From IMG/VR virus record IMGVR_UViG_3300048109_000121, positions 1-28,004 of that record: a stretch of 28,004 nucleotides of DNA. One strand, written 5' to 3'. This document shows, piece by piece, positions 1,008 to 12,689 of the stretch. Source of the DNA: a virus. The translations under genes were made by a program, and so were the position numbers. Position 1 is the stretch's first letter, and every line of letters starts with the position of its first letter. The notes beneath the pieces were generated by a model, which saw nothing but the letters and a program-made list of their open reading frames with translations, was not told where the DNA came from and searched no databases.

Positions 1008-2006
1008 CTATCCTAACCGCATCTTTACGTTGATCTTTGTACTATTACTTATGCTTCCATCAATTATACTTTTGAGAGTATATAGTTTTCCGTATCTCTG
1101 TATAGCATCTCCTGCATCTTTTAAATCATCTTCCCATCTTGGAAAAGAAACTGACCATCCATTTTCAATCGCTTGTTTGATTAGTTTCTCGCCTGCTTTG
1201 TCTCTATCTGGACATACGATAACTTCACCTTTGAATTGATTGATATAATCAATTTGCATATCACTTGCTTCATTACTCATAATCGCTACTGCATCTAAAC
1301 ATGCCGCATCAATCGTTCCTTCTGTTACTATCAAGTACTTTCTATTTCGTTTGATAGCATCTATATTATAGAGAAAGTCTTTTGGCGTTTTACTCATATA
1401 CTTTGCTTCATTCTTGCCAGTAAAGTCTCTGCCACTATATCCAACAATTCGGTCTCCCTGATAGAAAGGAAAGATAACTCTTTGTCTGAATATGGGATGC
1501 GGAGACCAATAAGTCTTAACGAAATCATATATTCCTCTATCTAGCAGATATTTAGCTGATGATACTGCACGTGCATCTGGTTCATCATCACGTAATATAT
1601 CTTCTAATAATCTTGCTCCTTCTGGCAGTTCACATTCTTTGAATGATGGTATGCGTGTTGTTTGTGTCTTACTAATGAATAGTGTAGGCCCATCTGCTAA
1701 TTCTTTTTCTCTGATAGCATCTAATTGTAAACGTTTAATATCACTTTCTGCTACGCCCAAATTACGCATAAGATTTAACATCTTTTTGTTAATAACTCTA
1801 CCACGTTTGTGTGATGCAGTAAACCCACAGTTAAAACAGTGATATGATATACTCTCATTGTCTGAACGAATACCACCTCTCATACGTGTATCATTACGTG
1901 CTTCACCATTGTCTACGCAACATGGACAATTGAAAGACAGCCAACCTCCGGATGACTGTCTTCGCTGATGCGGCAAATATTGATATATAGACTGTTGTAT
2001 TTCCAT
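1008..2006 (-). CDS. 61: DNA primase gp61
   Basis: 332 residues, close to the T4 gp61 length. It makes RNA primers for lagging-strand synthesis together with gp41. The N-terminal zinc-binding module shows C27, C29/C30, C57 and C60 (CPCC ... HCFNC). The TOPRIM-type catalytic core shows LIVTEGTIDAACLDAV (225-240, E229) and CPDRDKAG (265-272, D267 and D269), the metal-binding acidic set of DnaG-type primases. Weak similarity to gp61 elsewhere is expected. The ATG at 2006 is chosen because the upstream promoter places +1 exactly on it; there is no Shine-Dalgarno. The ClpP-like gene follows after 13 bases. Confidence 0.9.
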   Translation of the reverse strand: MEIQQSIYQYLPHQRRQSSGGWLSFNCPCCVDNGEARNDTRMRGGIRSDNESISYHCFNCGFTASHKRGRVINKKMLNLMRNLGVAESDIKRLQLDAIREKELADGPTLFISKTQTTRIPSFKECELPEGARLLEDILRDDEPDARAVSSAKYLLDRGIYDFVKTYWSPHPIFRQRVIFPFYQGDRIVGYSGRDFTGKNEAKYMSKTPKDFLYNIDAIKRNRKYLIVTEGTIDAACLDAVAIMSNEASDMQIDYINQFKGEVIVCPDRDKAGEKLIKQAIENGWSVSFPRWEDDLKDAGDAIQRYGKLYTLKSIIDGSISNSTKINVKMRLG

Positions 2007-5370: not shown

Positions 5371-5760
5371 ATGATGGAAAAAGAAAAAATTGAATGGATC
5401 CAAGAGAATTACCCATTTTTCTCAATGGTTCGTTACGGGAAAAAAGAATATGAGGATTATCTTGGTATTGTTATTAATACTGATAATGTGATTACCTCTA
5501 TATATAATTTTGAATCTATTCCGACACCTGAATTGAGGAAAGCATTTATTGAACTAGGCGAGCAATGGTGGTGGGAGTCAAATAGACTAATACCTATTAA
5601 CTTGTTCTTGGGATCACAGATTTCAGTTTACAGAAACTGGATTACTAATATGAATTCAAAAGATGTAAAGATCATGTGGGGACCAGAAACGTCACTGAAT
5701 AACATTATTCAAAAACGTATCAAGCGCCGTTCTGTTCAACTTGTTCGCAAAATAGATTAA
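5371..5760 (+). CDS. Unknown protein, the only plus-strand gene
   Basis: 129 residues, no family recognised. The product is compact and aromatic-rich: KIEWIQENYPFFSMVRYGKK at the start, a striking EQWWWES in the middle (about 68-74) and a basic C-terminus (KRIKRRSVQLVRKID). No signal peptide or membrane segment. Two ATGs in tandem (5371, 5374) are possible starts; no Shine-Dalgarno is visible. A late-type promoter element lies directly upstream, suggesting late expression. Its last 41 bases overlap, tail to tail, the end of the DnaE-like gene on the other strand, and no terminator is seen between them, so late antisense RNA across the DnaE-like gene is possible. Confidence 0.75.
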   Translation: MMEKEKIEWIQENYPFFSMVRYGKKEYEDYLGIVINTDNVITSIYNFESIPTPELRKAFIELGEQWWWESNRLIPINLFLGSQISVYRNWITNMNSKDVKIMWGPETSLNNIIQKRIKRRSVQLVRKID

Positions 5761-6307
5761 GCTGAACTACAATACTTACTGCATACGCAACAGCGTGTGC
5801 TTTTTTAAAATAATAAGTATCGTCTGTTGGCTTTGTCCAAACTTGTGAAGTTATAGTTTCTCTGTTTTCATTTAAAAGGTGTCGTTTAGCAGGACGAATA
5901 ATGGCGAGAACTTCTGCCAGTTCTTCAACAGTGTTCGGCTTTAATACCTTTAATACTTCAATATGATTAGAAACATGTGCGAGATTTTTTACAACTTCTT
6001 CATGTTGAAACAATTCCCATACTGGTTCTTGTTCCATAAGTGAAATTAGATGTGCTTCATCACGTACTCCCTCATATAGAGAGTTATTAAGAAAGTCTAA
6101 CTTAAAATAATTTCTTTCTTCTGCTTCTTTATATTCTATACTTGCAAGATTAGTTACTGGATCATGCGGTATCTTACTAACATACACACCGCTATTATGC
6201 TTTACGTATACGCCATTTTTCTCAATACTTGCAGGCACATGACTAATGCAAGATAGAATTTTATTTCTATCAAATAAGTCAATATCAATATCAGTTTGAT
6301 TATTCAT
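5720..6307 (-). CDS. Miniature DnaE/PolC-like polymerase-core protein
   Basis: 195 residues from the ATG at 6307, which overlaps the previous stop as TAATG. The protein reads as a collapsed bacterial replicative polymerase α subunit (C-family). DIDIDLFDRNKIL (6-18) matches the DxDxDF palm motif. KHNSGVYVSKIP ... SIEYKEAEERNYFKLDFLNN (36-75) matches the DnaE/PolC stretch ending KFDFLGL, with D71 at the third catalytic position. LKPNTVEELAEVLAIIRPA (122-140) matches the fingers motif ending in (Y/F)RPG. YYFKKAHAVAYAVSIVVQL (165-183) matches the FxKAHAxAY motif. PHP, tail and β-binding regions are absent; normal DnaE has about 1,100 residues. Activity is unknown: it may be a true minimal polymerase, an accessory factor or a decoy. 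It is last in the UvsW operon. Confidence 0.7.
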   Translation of the reverse strand: MNNQTDIDIDLFDRNKILSCISHVPASIEKNGVYVKHNSGVYVSKIPHDPVTNLASIEYKEAEERNYFKLDFLNNSLYEGVRDEAHLISLMEQEPVWELFQHEEVVKNLAHVSNHIEVLKVLKPNTVEELAEVLAIIRPAKRHLLNENRETITSQVWTKPTDDTYYFKKAHAVAYAVSIVVQLNLFCEQVEQNGA

Positions 6308-6822: not shown

Positions 6823-7365
6823 TCACATTTCCCATGGAAACTCAATCCAGTTCTCCTCCTCTTCAGTGAATTCTGCACTCCAATAATCAGTATCAACAAT
6901 TGAATTCGGATTTGAAAGTAGTGAAGCGAAACGAACATTCTCATGCCATACAGAATTCCAAGCATTTTCTTCATTTGGAAAACAACCTGCCTGCCAGTCT
7001 TCCATAATCCATTCCATTGCATCACCGCCACGATTGATATCATCCATGATAAGAATGTTTTTGCGCAATCTAGGATCCCACCGTGCGCCCGTAGTACCAG
7101 TAATATCAGGATCATTATAACCAAATGCTTGTTCTGCCATCCAGCAATTACTTTCAGTATTTTCGTCAAGTCCATCTGCAGCAAGTTGAACGCAAAGGGT
7201 ATGCATTGGAATACTAGTCATATGAGATAACATTACTGCCGGCACTAGTCCACCACGAGTTATACCTACAATATAATCTGGTCGCCAGTTAGACTTAAAT
7301 AATCCCATTGCAATATCACGCACTGCATGTTCTGTTTTATTCCAATCGTAAGTTATAGTTTTCAA
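6823..7365 (-). CDS. Phosphoribosyltransferase-family protein (TTG start)
   Basis: 180 residues. Type I PRTase features: YIVGITRGGLVPAVMLSHMT (31-50) matches the early strand and loop, and NILIMDDINRGGDAMEWI (103-120) matches the PRPP-binding loop (hydrophobics, two acids, then a TGxT-like turn, here NRGGDA). Such enzymes join PRPP to a nucleobase, most often in purine salvage. The substrate hood cannot be assigned from this sequence; a Gpt-like or orotate-type activity is possible. The start is TTG at 7365, fixed by a GAGGAG Shine-Dalgarno eight bases upstream and by the TTGA overlap with the previous stop. The gene may feed nucleotides to phage DNA synthesis alongside NrdAB. Confidence 0.78.
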   Translation of the reverse strand: MKTITYDWNKTEHAVRDIAMGLFKSNWRPDYIVGITRGGLVPAVMLSHMTSIPMHTLCVQLAADGLDENTESNCWMAEQAFGYNDPDITGTTGARWDPRLRKNILIMDDINRGGDAMEWIMEDWQAGCFPNEENAWNSVWHENVRFASLLSNPNSIVDTDYWSAEFTEEEENWIEFPWEM

Positions 7366-7787: not shown

Positions 7788-7983
7788 CTGTTTGATCCTC
7801 CACCTTCTTAATAGTCCAACTACCGTCAGGCATTTCGACCCATGTTAAGTCATCGCCCTCTTTCCAGCCGAGTTGGTCAAGTAACCTCTGTGGTAGTTCG
7901 ATGAATGCTTCGCCAGTTGTTGGGTCTTCTTGTACTATTAACGTAGAAGAATTTTCAACTTTACTAACTCGTTTTGTACTCAT
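7774..7983 (-). CDS. AbrB/MazE-like DNA-binding protein
   Basis: 69 residues. The segment EAFIELPQRLLDQLGWKEGD then DLTWVEMPDGSWTIKKV (25-61) is the classic swapped-hairpin AbrB/SpoVT fold: strand, LP(Q/P)xLLxxLGWxxGD turn, strand. These proteins dimerise and bind DNA as antitoxins or transition-state regulators. No toxin partner lies next to it, so a phage transcription regulator is more likely than an antitoxin; this is inference. It begins with an ATGA overlap with the zinc-finger gene. It is one candidate for the factor that reads the GAATC-spacer promoters. Confidence 0.82.
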   Translation of the reverse strand: MSTKRVSKVENSSTLIVQEDPTTGEAFIELPQRLLDQLGWKEGDDLTWVEMPDGSWTIKKVEDQTDENK

Positions 7984-8654
7984 AATCCAGCCTCCTTTAA
8001 TACCATCTGTACAAATTCAACATCTTCTTTTCGTGTTGAAAACTTACGTGTCCAGAACGTTGGTTCTAAATATTCATTAATCATATGGTGTTCATTATCT
8101 GTCATTGATGCAATTGCCTTATCACCAGAATTGCAATTAAAAATAATCCAAGGGCTAATGCGTCCGGACTTGATCCAATGTATAAGACGCGGCCTACTAA
8201 TTTCCCTAAAGAATACATTAAACGGTCTATCATGTTCCCTGCCCCATTGTTCCATTAACAAGATGCCTCGTTCAACTGCACGTTCTGATGTTTCTTTCTT
8301 ATTTAACTCACGTATATAACTTTCATATACAGAGTCTTTACACCAACTATCCAATGGAATACTTGCTGTAATAACAAAGTTAATAAACTTCTCTGGCTCG
8401 ATTGCATTAATCTCTAACATGTGTTTACCAAACCTAGTAAATGCTGTATAATAGTTAGACTTAGCAAAGTGTTCATATGTCTTTTGTTTAGTGGCGCCTT
8501 GTGTCATTTCATAAAATCTATTGTATGCAGTAAATCCTAATCGTACATACTTATCGTCTCGGTTAATATGCCTACGTTTCTGTTCACACAGATGCACAAC
8601 AAGGGTATTTTCACGCTTGAATACTTTTCCACAAAACCGACATTCAAAACTCAT
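7980..8654 (-). CDS. Zinc-finger protein of unknown function
   Basis: 224 residues. The N-terminus MSFECRFCGKVFKRENTLVV then HLCEQKRRH is a C2H2-type finger (C5, C8, H21 and H29 or C23), resembling a single eukaryote-style finger. The remaining 190 residues have no motif I can name; they are helical with GRISPWIIFN and several Arg/Lys-rich helices. A DNA- or RNA-binding role is likely from the finger. It is surrounded by recombination and replication genes in the UvsW operon. It starts with an ATGA overlap with the previous gene and ends overlapping the AbrB-like start. Confidence 0.75.
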   Translation of the reverse strand: MSFECRFCGKVFKRENTLVVHLCEQKRRHINRDDKYVRLGFTAYNRFYEMTQGATKQKTYEHFAKSNYYTAFTRFGKHMLEINAIEPEKFINFVITASIPLDSWCKDSVYESYIRELNKKETSERAVERGILLMEQWGREHDRPFNVFFREISRPRLIHWIKSGRISPWIIFNCNSGDKAIASMTDNEHHMINEYLEPTFWTRKFSTRKEDVEFVQMVLKEAGL

Positions 8655-9362: not shown

Positions 9363-9852
9363 AACTGCTTAGTACATCTGGTATCCTATTCAAATCTTTC
9401 ACAAAATATGCACACTTTGGTTTCTCTTTATGTTCGAGCGGGATAGCAAGAATATGACCATACTTTAATTTCGGGAAGAACCATTTAACATCTGCAAACA
9501 CATTATGAACTTTTACTGGCTCCCATTGCATTGTAAAACCACTTAGTGGATTTGTTAAGATAGTATCAAAAGGTCTTTCGTTAATACTTGTCAATGGAAT
9601 GAATTCTAACTGACCCAAATCCCTATCACCAATCAAAATATTCCAATCAATAGGCATTTCAATTTTATAATTGCCAATGCTCAACGATATGCTCGGAGCA
9701 TTGAATGTTTCGATGAACACTAATGGAATAAAGAAGAAATCAGGCTCTTGTTTATCTGTTACATCTAATACACAATAGCGTATATCTTCTATTTCATTTT
9801 CTGGTAAACTATTCATTTCGAATGTTTTATTTTCTGGTGTTAAAATTTTCAT
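9349..9852 (-). CDS. Conserved-looking unknown protein following UvsW
   Basis: 167 residues, no motif recognised. It begins MKILTPENKTFEMNSLPENE and is strand-rich with several hydrophobic β segments (DFFFIPLVFIETFNAP, YGHILAIPLEHKEKPKCAYF). A soluble, compact β-rich fold is likely. The ATG overlaps the uvsW stop as TAATG, so translation is probably coupled to UvsW. Function unknown. Confidence 0.7.
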   Translation of the reverse strand: MKILTPENKTFEMNSLPENEIEDIRYCVLDVTDKQEPDFFFIPLVFIETFNAPSISLSIGNYKIEMPIDWNILIGDRDLGQLEFIPLTSINERPFDTILTNPLSGFTMQWEPVKVHNVFADVKWFFPKLKYGHILAIPLEHKEKPKCAYFVKDLNRIPDVLSSYDFF

Positions 9853-11297
9853 TAGTATTTGACCTTTTGAATGTTAAATGGATACTCTGCATCCTTATAA
9901 TACTTTTTACGTTCAGTTAAGTGCCGTTTAGAAAATTTACATCGACTCGTAACATCCCAAACTTGAACAAAATCTTTATCTTCTGCTATACGAACTCCAC
10001 GACCGATAGACTGAATTACACGTACAAAAGACTTGCCAGGCTCCAACAGAACCAAGTTAAAGATACGAGGAATGTTAATACCCACGGCAGCCACACCGTA
10101 CGTAGCAACTGTGATTGTATTCGTTCCTTGATTGATTTCTTTGTACGCATCTTTTCGGTCATTTGTTTTCATTTCTCCCTGAACAAATTCTGCCCCCGGT
10201 AATAGTTCTTGTAATAACTGTCCGTTTCTAATTCTTCCTGTCAGCACAAGTGTATTTCCTGTCTTTGACACTTCTTTAATCATTTCTGCAAGGTATTCCA
10301 TTCGCTTTTTGTCTTCTAACAAAAACTTTAACTCACTTTGGTAGCTTGTGTATTCTGCTGTCTCCTGAGTCTGAATAATGTTCACTTCGCAGTTAGCAAG
10401 AACACCTTGATCCTGTAGTTCTTTCGCCGCTAGACGATTAACTACTGTCCCAAGACTTGCTTGAATAGTAGCGAATTCATGGTCTGACTTGGGGATAGTA
10501 CCTGTCAGACCCCATCGCAATGGGACGTTTGCAAACACGCTTGTTAGCAAGTCTTTTAGAACATCTGCTTTAGCTTGGTGTACTTCGTCAACCATAACGC
10601 ATACAACATCTTCGATAAAATCCATGATGTTGTCTTCACCTTTCTTTGTTTTCTTCAACAAACTATTGAGTGATTGCCATGTACAGATAGTGTGCGTCTT
10701 GCCAATATCTTTACGGTCACCGAAGTACACCCCAACGTCTAACCCACAATTAATATAGTCCTCTTCTGTTTGTCGTACCAAATCCTTGTTCGGTACAATG
10801 ACAATAGAGCGTCCATACTTTTCTGCAATTTTAGATAGCGTGGCAGTCATGATAGTTTTACCTGCGCCAGTCGCAATCTCTTGTAAAGCCTGTGGTGTTT
10901 CAAGAAACTTGTTAACTACATCTACTTGATAATCACGTAAACGAATTGGTTGACCTGCGGCGGGGTGCCCTTCAGGCCAGCAAGTATCGCCCCAAAACTC
11001 TGCATCAACCATATCAAATGATAGTTCTGTATGTTCACGCCTATCATCAATATCAATTTCATATCCAGAACTAATTACAATAGGTAGAATATCATCAAGT
11101 AGATTTAGATATGTACGACCGCCCACATCACAAAAGCGCACAGTACCATCCCAGCGCCCTAGCTTATACGCTGGCATATGATATGCATGTGGTAAGAAGA
11201 ACTTTAACTTATCAGAACACTTACGGCGTGTTGCTGGGTCAAGTCCATCTAACTTAACGTTCACTTCATCTTTGATTAATATTGTACATTTCTTCAA
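9852..11297 (-). CDS. uvsW: UvsW-type recombination helicase
   Basis: 481 residues, close to T4 UvsW (about 500). It is a superfamily 2 helicase that remodels branched DNA, dismantles R-loops and helps switch from origin- to recombination-dependent replication. Motif Ia/Q region RLRDYQVDVVNKFL (119-132), Walker A ATGAGKT (142-148), DEVH box (237-240), motif III LTGTIP, and motif VI VIQSIGRGVR near the C-terminus are all present. The first 100 residues (KLGRWDGTVRF) match the small N-terminal DNA-binding domain of UvsW. The start is TTG at 11297, overlapping the previous TGA as TTGA; the only nearby ATG is out of frame. Upstream GGAT is a weak ribosome site, so coupling is likely. Confidence 0.94.
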   Translation of the reverse strand: MKKCTILIKDEVNVKLDGLDPATRRKCSDKLKFFLPHAYHMPAYKLGRWDGTVRFCDVGGRTYLNLLDDILPIVISSGYEIDIDDRREHTELSFDMVDAEFWGDTCWPEGHPAAGQPIRLRDYQVDVVNKFLETPQALQEIATGAGKTIMTATLSKIAEKYGRSIVIVPNKDLVRQTEEDYINCGLDVGVYFGDRKDIGKTHTICTWQSLNSLLKKTKKGEDNIMDFIEDVVCVMVDEVHQAKADVLKDLLTSVFANVPLRWGLTGTIPKSDHEFATIQASLGTVVNRLAAKELQDQGVLANCEVNIIQTQETAEYTSYQSELKFLLEDKKRMEYLAEMIKEVSKTGNTLVLTGRIRNGQLLQELLPGAEFVQGEMKTNDRKDAYKEINQGTNTITVATYGVAAVGINIPRIFNLVLLEPGKSFVRVIQSIGRGVRIAEDKDFVQVWDVTSRCKFSKRHLTERKKYYKDAEYPFNIQKVKY

Positions 11298-11714: not shown

Positions 11715-12689
11715 TCAGACCCGTTTCATGCAAGTTGTTTCTGCTAGACGCTTCCAACGACCTGGTGCCATCTTTACTAAGTCTGCAAGTTTCTGAGCCA
11801 TACGCAATGAGATTTCACGCATCTTTGCTTGATTATTTTCTAAGAAATCAACAATCTCAACTTCTTGTTCTTTGCTAAGACCTTTCTGATCGAATAGACC
11901 ACCATCACGTGCAATCTGCTTAATACGCAAGATTTTGTCACGTGTAGAATCAAGTGTCAAATCAAGATAGTGACAACGAGACATGATAGCTTCTAGGTGA
12001 TCTTTAATCTTTGTTGAACGAACATTGTCGAACTTCAAGTTTGTGATAAAGATTACAGAACCTTTGAATTCAAAACGATCAGGAACACCTTCACGGCGTA
12101 AGAAGTGCGAGTCAGAGTTCCAAGAAATCATACGCTTCTTACCACTGTCAAGTGCTGCTTTGAGAATGTTTAGAGCATTTTCGTCAAACAGAATACTATC
12201 ACAATCGTCAAGTACTACAATGTTTTTTGATTCTGAATACTTGTAAAGCATCGCATACAAACCAATAGGTGACATTGTACCTTTGACAAATGTGTGACGA
12301 AGTGGGTTATCTGCCATCACGTCAAATAGTGAATCTTTCTCAAGTATCTGTTCGACACCATATGTCTTACCGATCCCAGGAGGTCCTGAGACGACCATTC
12401 CACGCACTACACCATCGATAGTAGCTTCTGTCATTTCATCTAAGATAGAGAAACGTTCTGCGATACGATCCATAACTTGTTCATCAGTCTCACGATGTTG
12501 TGAAACTGTTTCGATATTTTCAGGACGCACTTTGACACGCATCTTTGCACGATTGAATTCTGTTTCACTTGCATCAACTGTGATGAAGTGAGTTCCGTCT
12601 TTTGCTTCTTTCAGTTCTTGAACTACTGGGAAGATGCCTGTAACTTCTTCATTGCGATAGAAGCCATTTGTGATTTGTACTACTGACAT
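11715..12689 (-). CDS. AAA+ ATPase
   Basis: 324 residues. Walker A SGPPGIGKT (101-109), Walker B IVVLDDCD (157-164), sensor-1-like VIFITN, and an arginine-finger-like MSRC follow in order. The fold matches AAA+ ATPases of phage origin with a roughly 90-residue N-terminal extension. It may work as a MoxR- or clamp-loader-like remodelling ATPase; its substrate cannot be read. It is a single-gene unit with a GAATC-spacer promoter and a strong terminator, not part of the UvsW operon. The leader carries AAGAGAAAGAGAATC just before the ATG, shared with the 31-residue membrane gene at 22505. Confidence 0.9.
   Translation of the reverse strand: MSVVQITNGFYRNEEVTGIFPVVQELKEAKDGTHFITVDASETEFNRAKMRVKVRPENIETVSQHRETDEQVMDRIAERFSILDEMTEATIDGVVRGMVVSGPPGIGKTYGVEQILEKDSLFDVMADNPLRHTFVKGTMSPIGLYAMLYKYSESKNIVVLDDCDSILFDENALNILKAALDSGKKRMISWNSDSHFLRREGVPDRFEFKGSVIFITNLKFDNVRSTKIKDHLEAIMSRCHYLDLTLDSTRDKILRIKQIARDGGLFDQKGLSKEQEVEIVDFLENNQAKMREISLRMAQKLADLVKMAPGRWKRLAETTCMKRV

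Follow-up and report, generated by a model that had tools for sequence, protein, structure and literature searches.

Jumbo phages of group 2.2 are described by Iyer et al. (2021, PMC7824862) as carrying a family B DNA polymerase together with a minimal DNA polymerase III alpha that is encoded by two distant genes. The split Pol III alpha is suggested there to cooperate in making one of the strands or in repair. A truncated Pol III alpha had already been recorded in the genome papers of CBB (172 residues, PMC5259590) and Atu_ph07 (PMC6102473). No biochemical test of the split Pol III alpha was found in the open-access literature. The gene considered here lies in a stretch of 28,004 nucleotides of viral DNA (IMG/VR record IMGVR_UViG_3300048109_000121, hereafter the window), and it is a further member of the computationally described "split minimal DNA polymerase III alpha". 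Relative to that account, the present analysis adds the split point, a map of the deletions, the near-universal pairing of the two halves, purifying selection and the linkage to a gene of the family phrog_11637.

The C-half gene and its family

The window comes from a T4-like phage, in which PHROG matches identify a UvsW helicase, UvsX, a gp32-type SSB and a primase. On its minus strand, an open reading frame of 195 codons plus a stop occupies 5720-6307 (Table 1), and the start methionine of its product aligns with that of its relatives. This protein, the C-half, matches phrog_11778, a family named DNA polymerase, over residues 2-189 (E 9e-69), and as a single sequence it also matches the phage DnaE family phrog_405 (E 5.8e-5). 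Relatives were found in 65 phage records by protein search and in at least 575 IMG/VR contigs by a profile-guided scan. The dN/dS ratios are mostly 0.06-0.2 (0.09-0.21 for the window gene against its relatives); the gene is under purifying selection, and its substitutions are largely silent. A scan of prokaryote genomes further placed the C-half in 11 metagenome-assembled contigs of bacteria and archaea, for instance under Neomarinimicrobiota, Natrialbaceae and Pelagibacter (loci L204-L214). These are probably phage contigs binned under the wrong organism, so that no cellular single-chain version was seen in that scan, which returned these 11 contigs only.

Homology and fold of the C-half

The initial annotation had read this protein as the palm and fingers of a DnaE/PolC-like polymerase with the intervening domains gone. 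An hhalign comparison of 51 family members with seven diverse DnaE proteins supports this reading, giving a probability of 95%, an E-value of 4e-8 and a score of 66; the highest score among 50 column-shuffled DnaE alignments was 24, and the reversed alignment scored 17. Judged by these alignment scores, the likeness between the C-half and DnaE exceeds chance. The DnaE alignment was needed for this result: against the single E. coli DnaE, the alignment was correct and the probability only 3%. Other comparisons were fainter. Pfam and NCBIfam searches with the single window protein returned nothing over the cut-off (PF17657 E 0.08; best E among the 51 members 0.002), and phmmer of the window protein found no match among PDB sequences. 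The family profile, searched against the same PDB sequences, picked out only the Mycobacterium tuberculosis DnaE (E 1.9), in weak pieces, three of which coincide with the expected motifs, in order.

The predicted structure agrees with the alignments. The AlphaFold model of the window protein has a pLDDT of 89.4, and all 12 of its top 12 Foldseek matches are C-family polymerases (best E 2.7e-3). VIA-align placed the model on 14 of 14 C-family entries with Z 5.8-9.4 over 174-192 residues, the best unrelated chain reaching Z 3.5, and the matched range on E. coli DnaE (2hnh) is 397-784. The palm and fingers fold typical of the C-family is thus found in the C-half model by VIA-align, as had been anticipated. 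The window protein is a C-family, DnaE-type palm and fingers core.

Catalytic residues

The four DnaE/PolC motifs that had been proposed are all present in the translated open reading frame and in the order proposed, and they were aligned by hhalign at scores above those of the shuffled controls. A fifth, KHNSG, which corresponds to KHAGG of DnaE, had been overlooked. The complete order is DIDID (residues 6-10), KHNSG (36-40), KLDFLN (69-74), IRPAK (137-141) and YFKKAH (166-171).

D6, D8 and D10 are aspartates in all 60 aligned members, and DxDxD recurs in 91/91 further C-half members. H37 and G40 of the second motif are invariant in the aligned set (60/60), as are K69, D71 and L73, which correspond to E. 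coli K553, D555 and L557 (KxDxL in 90 of the 91 further members). The same is true of I137, R138, P139 and K141, where R138 and P139 correspond to E. coli R639 and P640 (60/60; IRPxK in 91/91), and of F167, K168 and H171 (60/60; FKKxH in 89/91). The invariance of the catalytic Asp, Lys and His residues spans members below 50% identity. The metal-binding aspartates (E. coli D401, D403 and D555) are absolutely conserved across the C-family (PMC3919608), and the aligned members carry all three of them, as D6, D8 and D71, in 60/60 cases. The position of D405 is occupied by Asp in DnaE and by Asn in PolC (PMC3919608). Because the C-half has the additional Asp at this position (D10) in all 60 members, its sequence is classed as DnaE-like rather than PolC-like; the assignment to the C-family in the initial annotation stands, and is narrowed accordingly.

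Table 1. Positions, in window coordinates, of the C-half gene, its motifs and shortened regions, and neighbouring genes
Feature	Position	Strand	Basis
C-terminal half, split minimal DNA polymerase III alpha	5720..6307	(-)	195 aa plus stop; ORF, translation; phrog_11778
DIDID, residues 6-10 = E. coli DnaE D401/D403/D405	6278..6292	(-)	alignment
Residues 11-35, 25-residue stretch replacing 104 DnaE residues including the thumb	6203..6277	(-)	spacing of D405 and K510 equivalents
KHNSG, residues 36-40 = E. coli K510-G514 (KHAGG)	6188..6202	(-)	hhalign
KLDFL, residues 69-73 = E. coli K553-L557, third catalytic Asp D555	6089..6103	(-)	hhalign
IRPAK, residues 137-141, fingers motif = E. coli FRPGP (R639, P640)	5885..5899	(-)	hhalign
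Residues 142-164, short linker in place of ~110 DnaE fingers residues, among them the conserved YQEQ and LRRAMGK segments	5816..5884	(-)	motif spacing
YFKKAH, residues 166-171 = E. coli GFNKSH (F756, K758, H760)	5795..5812	(-)	alignment
Convergent 129-aa gene, phrog_11637, possible partner	5371..5760	(+)	phrog_11637 E 6.7e-30
DNA primase, same replication cluster	1008..2006	(-)	phrog_47 E 7e-43
UvsW-type helicase, same replication cluster	9852..11297	(-)	phrog_16 E 3e-72

Regions missing from the core

Motif spacing bears out the claim that the domains between the conserved segments are gone. The equivalents of D405 and K510 are separated by 25 residues in the C-half and by 104 in E. coli, which indicates, on the alignment, that the thumb has been lost; the AlphaFold model has strands at residues 24-30 and 33-42. 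Similarly, 26 residues against 114 lie between the equivalents of R639 and Y754, and the distal fingers are gone. In DnaE this lost segment holds the invariant residues T680, G682, Q687, E688, A705, R709 and A711, and with their disappearance templated incorporation may be lost as well, even though nucleotidyl transfer could remain. Other parts of the polymerase were sought in the genomes of relatives. The PHP domain (PF02811) was detected in 0/8 of these genomes and in 14/14 control genomes, and HHH_6 (PF14579), the tandem helix-hairpin-helix that precedes the clamp motif, in 0/8 and 11/14, respectively. The Gly-Ser nucleotide-binding motif (GRGS) is absent from the window protein. As far as profiles and alignments tell, the C-half and the partner described below are together without thumb, distal fingers, PHP and helix-hairpin-helix regions.

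A second gene for the N-terminal half

PF07733 was searched against 12 relative genomes or contigs, and in 10 of them it matched one other small open reading frame. Its product of about 180 residues, the N-half, aligns by hhalign with residues 273-392 of E. coli DnaE (E 2e-6; 8e-10 against the DnaE alignment), and in a relative it belongs to phrog_11127, again a family named DNA polymerase. The GRGSS motif is present in 56 of 56 N-halves. The N-half ends 1-3 residues past an EFL motif (56/56), and the C-half begins 2-8 residues before DxDxD (58/60). The two are complementary and do not overlap, the first ending at E. coli position 392 and the second starting at 397. The C-half holds only half of an active site, the Gly-Ser half being placed by these alignments on a separate protein. 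The hhalign match to DnaE does not reach residues 1-85 of the N-half (for example L113:7998-8252), and residues 36-174 bear a weak likeness to phrog_7513 (461 aa, E 0.002).

The two halves occur together with great regularity. Among the records listed, both are recorded in 59 of 60 phage records with a C-half, the exception being a partial record of 109 kb, and every complete relative genome examined encodes the N-half elsewhere than the C-half. All searched C-half contigs of at least 223 kb have an N-half except one partial 242-kb contig; of the shorter contigs, two have it (146 and 155 kb) and four partial ones (79-161 kb) do not. It is likewise absent from the window, a 28-kb fragment. The genes are separated by tens to hundreds of kb; in RaK2, Paride, Atu_ph07 and Phosso the distance ranges from 34 kb to more than 180 kb. 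Neither fusion nor adjacency was seen among some 150 C-halves and 80 loci of the N-half. In RaK2, the N-half gene is located about 1 kb before that of the clamp loader gp44. A distinct N-half group (MKTDELGIPRFTNKD...) is found in many IMG/VR contigs (loci L122-L192), and nine contigs that carry it, 46-112 kb long, gave no C-half match; these contigs are probably fragments, and a more divergent C-half is possible.

Evolutionary distances of the two halves correlate with r 0.91 over 8 genomes, a value that agrees with shared descent and is not itself proof of contact between them. The AlphaFold model of the N-half alone has a pLDDT of 61, falling to about 40-50 at the catalytic end, from a shallow alignment, and fold comparison with it gave no usable match. 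The poor modelling of the catalytic end would fit, weakly, a strand in need of its partner.

Genomic setting

Of 12 genomes or contigs, 8 have a family B polymerase (PF00136) match over the cut-off, among them every one of the six named phages and both of the largest contigs, which bears out the expectation that the main replicase of this lineage is of the B-family. The C-half gene itself resides in a conserved replication cluster. The primase gene lies downstream of it in 53 of the 57 related loci with room, and UvsW upstream in 52 of 64. Closest of all is the convergent phrog_11637 gene, which overlaps the 3' end of the C-half gene by about 40 bp and stands beside it in 82/82 related loci with enough flank; its product is a possible third subunit. 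A DnaQ-type exonuclease, considered as an obligatory partner, was rejected, being present in only 5/8 genomes.

Other genes of the neighbourhood, all on the minus strand, include that of a phosphoribosyltransferase-domain protein shortly upstream of the C-half gene (6826-7365; PF00156 E 1.3e-7), that of a 224-residue protein with a weak N-terminal match to a C2H2 zinc finger (7983-8654; PF00096 E 0.004) and that of an AAA+-like phrog_1250 protein (11718-12689; E 7e-92), which also has a weak clamp-loader match.

Proposed mechanism and alternatives

We propose that the two genes encode a reduced DnaE core, the halves of which would assemble into a nucleotidyltransferase that works beside the family B replicase, and we assign this reading a probability of about 0.8. 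Its basis consists of homology, fold, conserved catalytic residues, the complementary split, co-occurrence and selection; the assembly, the catalysis and the role of the pair we infer. The C-half would form the metal-binding and template-side half, with the DxDxD strand, the KxDxL strand and shortened fingers, and the N-half would supply GRGSS, the motif that binds the nucleotide, along with the stretch of palm that comes before. Non-covalent association of the two would create one Pol-beta-like active site, in which nucleotides would be transferred via two-metal catalysis. As it is without thumb, PHP and clamp-binding regions, the pair alone should be weakly processive. The initial suggestion of an active minimal polymerase comes near the published proposal, but the C-half cannot be complete alone, because the Gly-Ser half is, in relatives, on another protein. 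An active, two-chain, thumbless core of about 375 residues serving as a second polymerase or nucleotidyltransferase, possibly with the phrog_11637 protein as a third subunit, is conceivable, at somewhat less than even odds. Confidence is lowest for the role of the pair. The likeliest role would be that of an accessory polymerase beside the family B replicase; primer extension near the primase-helicase, on the lagging strand, is a tentative assignment, and gap repair an equally tentative one.

The losses from the core are the main cause for caution about this mechanism, and they keep alive the alternative that the halves do assemble, yet into a template-independent or single-nucleotide transferase that, for example, tails or caps DNA or RNA ends. 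The shrinkage of the thumb stretch (104 residues to 25) and of the distal fingers (114 to 26) would suit such an enzyme, and the catalytic triad and Gly-Ser motif that were kept are what a generic Pol-beta-type transferase needs. Both IRPxK and FKKxH are conserved throughout the family, and in DnaE the corresponding motifs sit in the fingers close to DNA and nucleotide; together with the conserved position near primase and helicase, this argues against it, and we regard the transferase as unlikely, if still a serious contender. A catalytically idle subunit, acting as a structural or processivity factor for the family B replicase, is improbable. It would be in keeping with the presence of that replicase in the same genomes and with the incomplete active site of the C-half by itself, but the three catalytic Asp, the Lys and the His are invariant, as is the Gly-Ser motif in the separate N-half, and the predicted fold is that of a polymerase core and not of a clamp. 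The clamp or processivity partner that the initial annotation had also raised is therefore not upheld.

Inhibitors of host replication are known from phages, and a C-half homologous to host DnaE might be imagined as a decoy that mimics part of this protein to disturb the host replicase. Such a decoy, likewise part of the initial annotation, is very hard to reconcile with catalytic residues that are retained without variation under strong purifying selection, with a gene that always lies within the conserved phage replication cluster, with conservation among phages of very different hosts, and with the retention of the N-half partner. Even further from credibility is the joining of the halves post-translationally through a split intein. 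Cyanobacteria do have split DnaE genes whose products are joined in this manner, but neither junction leaves room for an intein, given where the N-half ends (56/56) and the C-half starts (58/60). Of these explanations, the reduced two-gene DnaE core is the one that we prefer.

Comparison with known systems

By itself, the window gene is one added member of its group. The pair is small, consists of two short chains and is widespread, and the prediction made in 2021 is consequently open to direct test. If active, the two-chain core would be, to our knowledge, the smallest C-family polymerase and the first to be built from two non-covalent halves. Activity of the pair would define the minimum of a replicative C-family polymerase that is needed for catalysis, and would place bacterial-type and archaeo-eukaryotic-type polymerases in one replisome.

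The family names of phrog_11778 and phrog_11127 are silent on the fact that they represent two halves of one core. Like the split Pol III alpha of group 2.2 phages, the present pair is encoded by distant, separate genes and is accompanied by a family B polymerase in the genomes of relatives; the phage of the window differs in being known from a 28-kb contig with the C-half alone. The split-intein DnaE of cyanobacteria is also encoded by two genes, but the phage split site differs, intein sequence is absent and the phage pair does not amount to a full-length DnaE. With E. coli DnaE, the pair has in common the palm and proximal fingers fold, and equivalents of D401, D403, D405, K553, D555, R639 and H760 are present in the C-half. 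The E. coli enzyme is a single chain of 1160 residues; the phage pair comprises about 375 in two chains, without the PHP domain, thumb, distal fingers, HhH2, OB and C-terminal domain.
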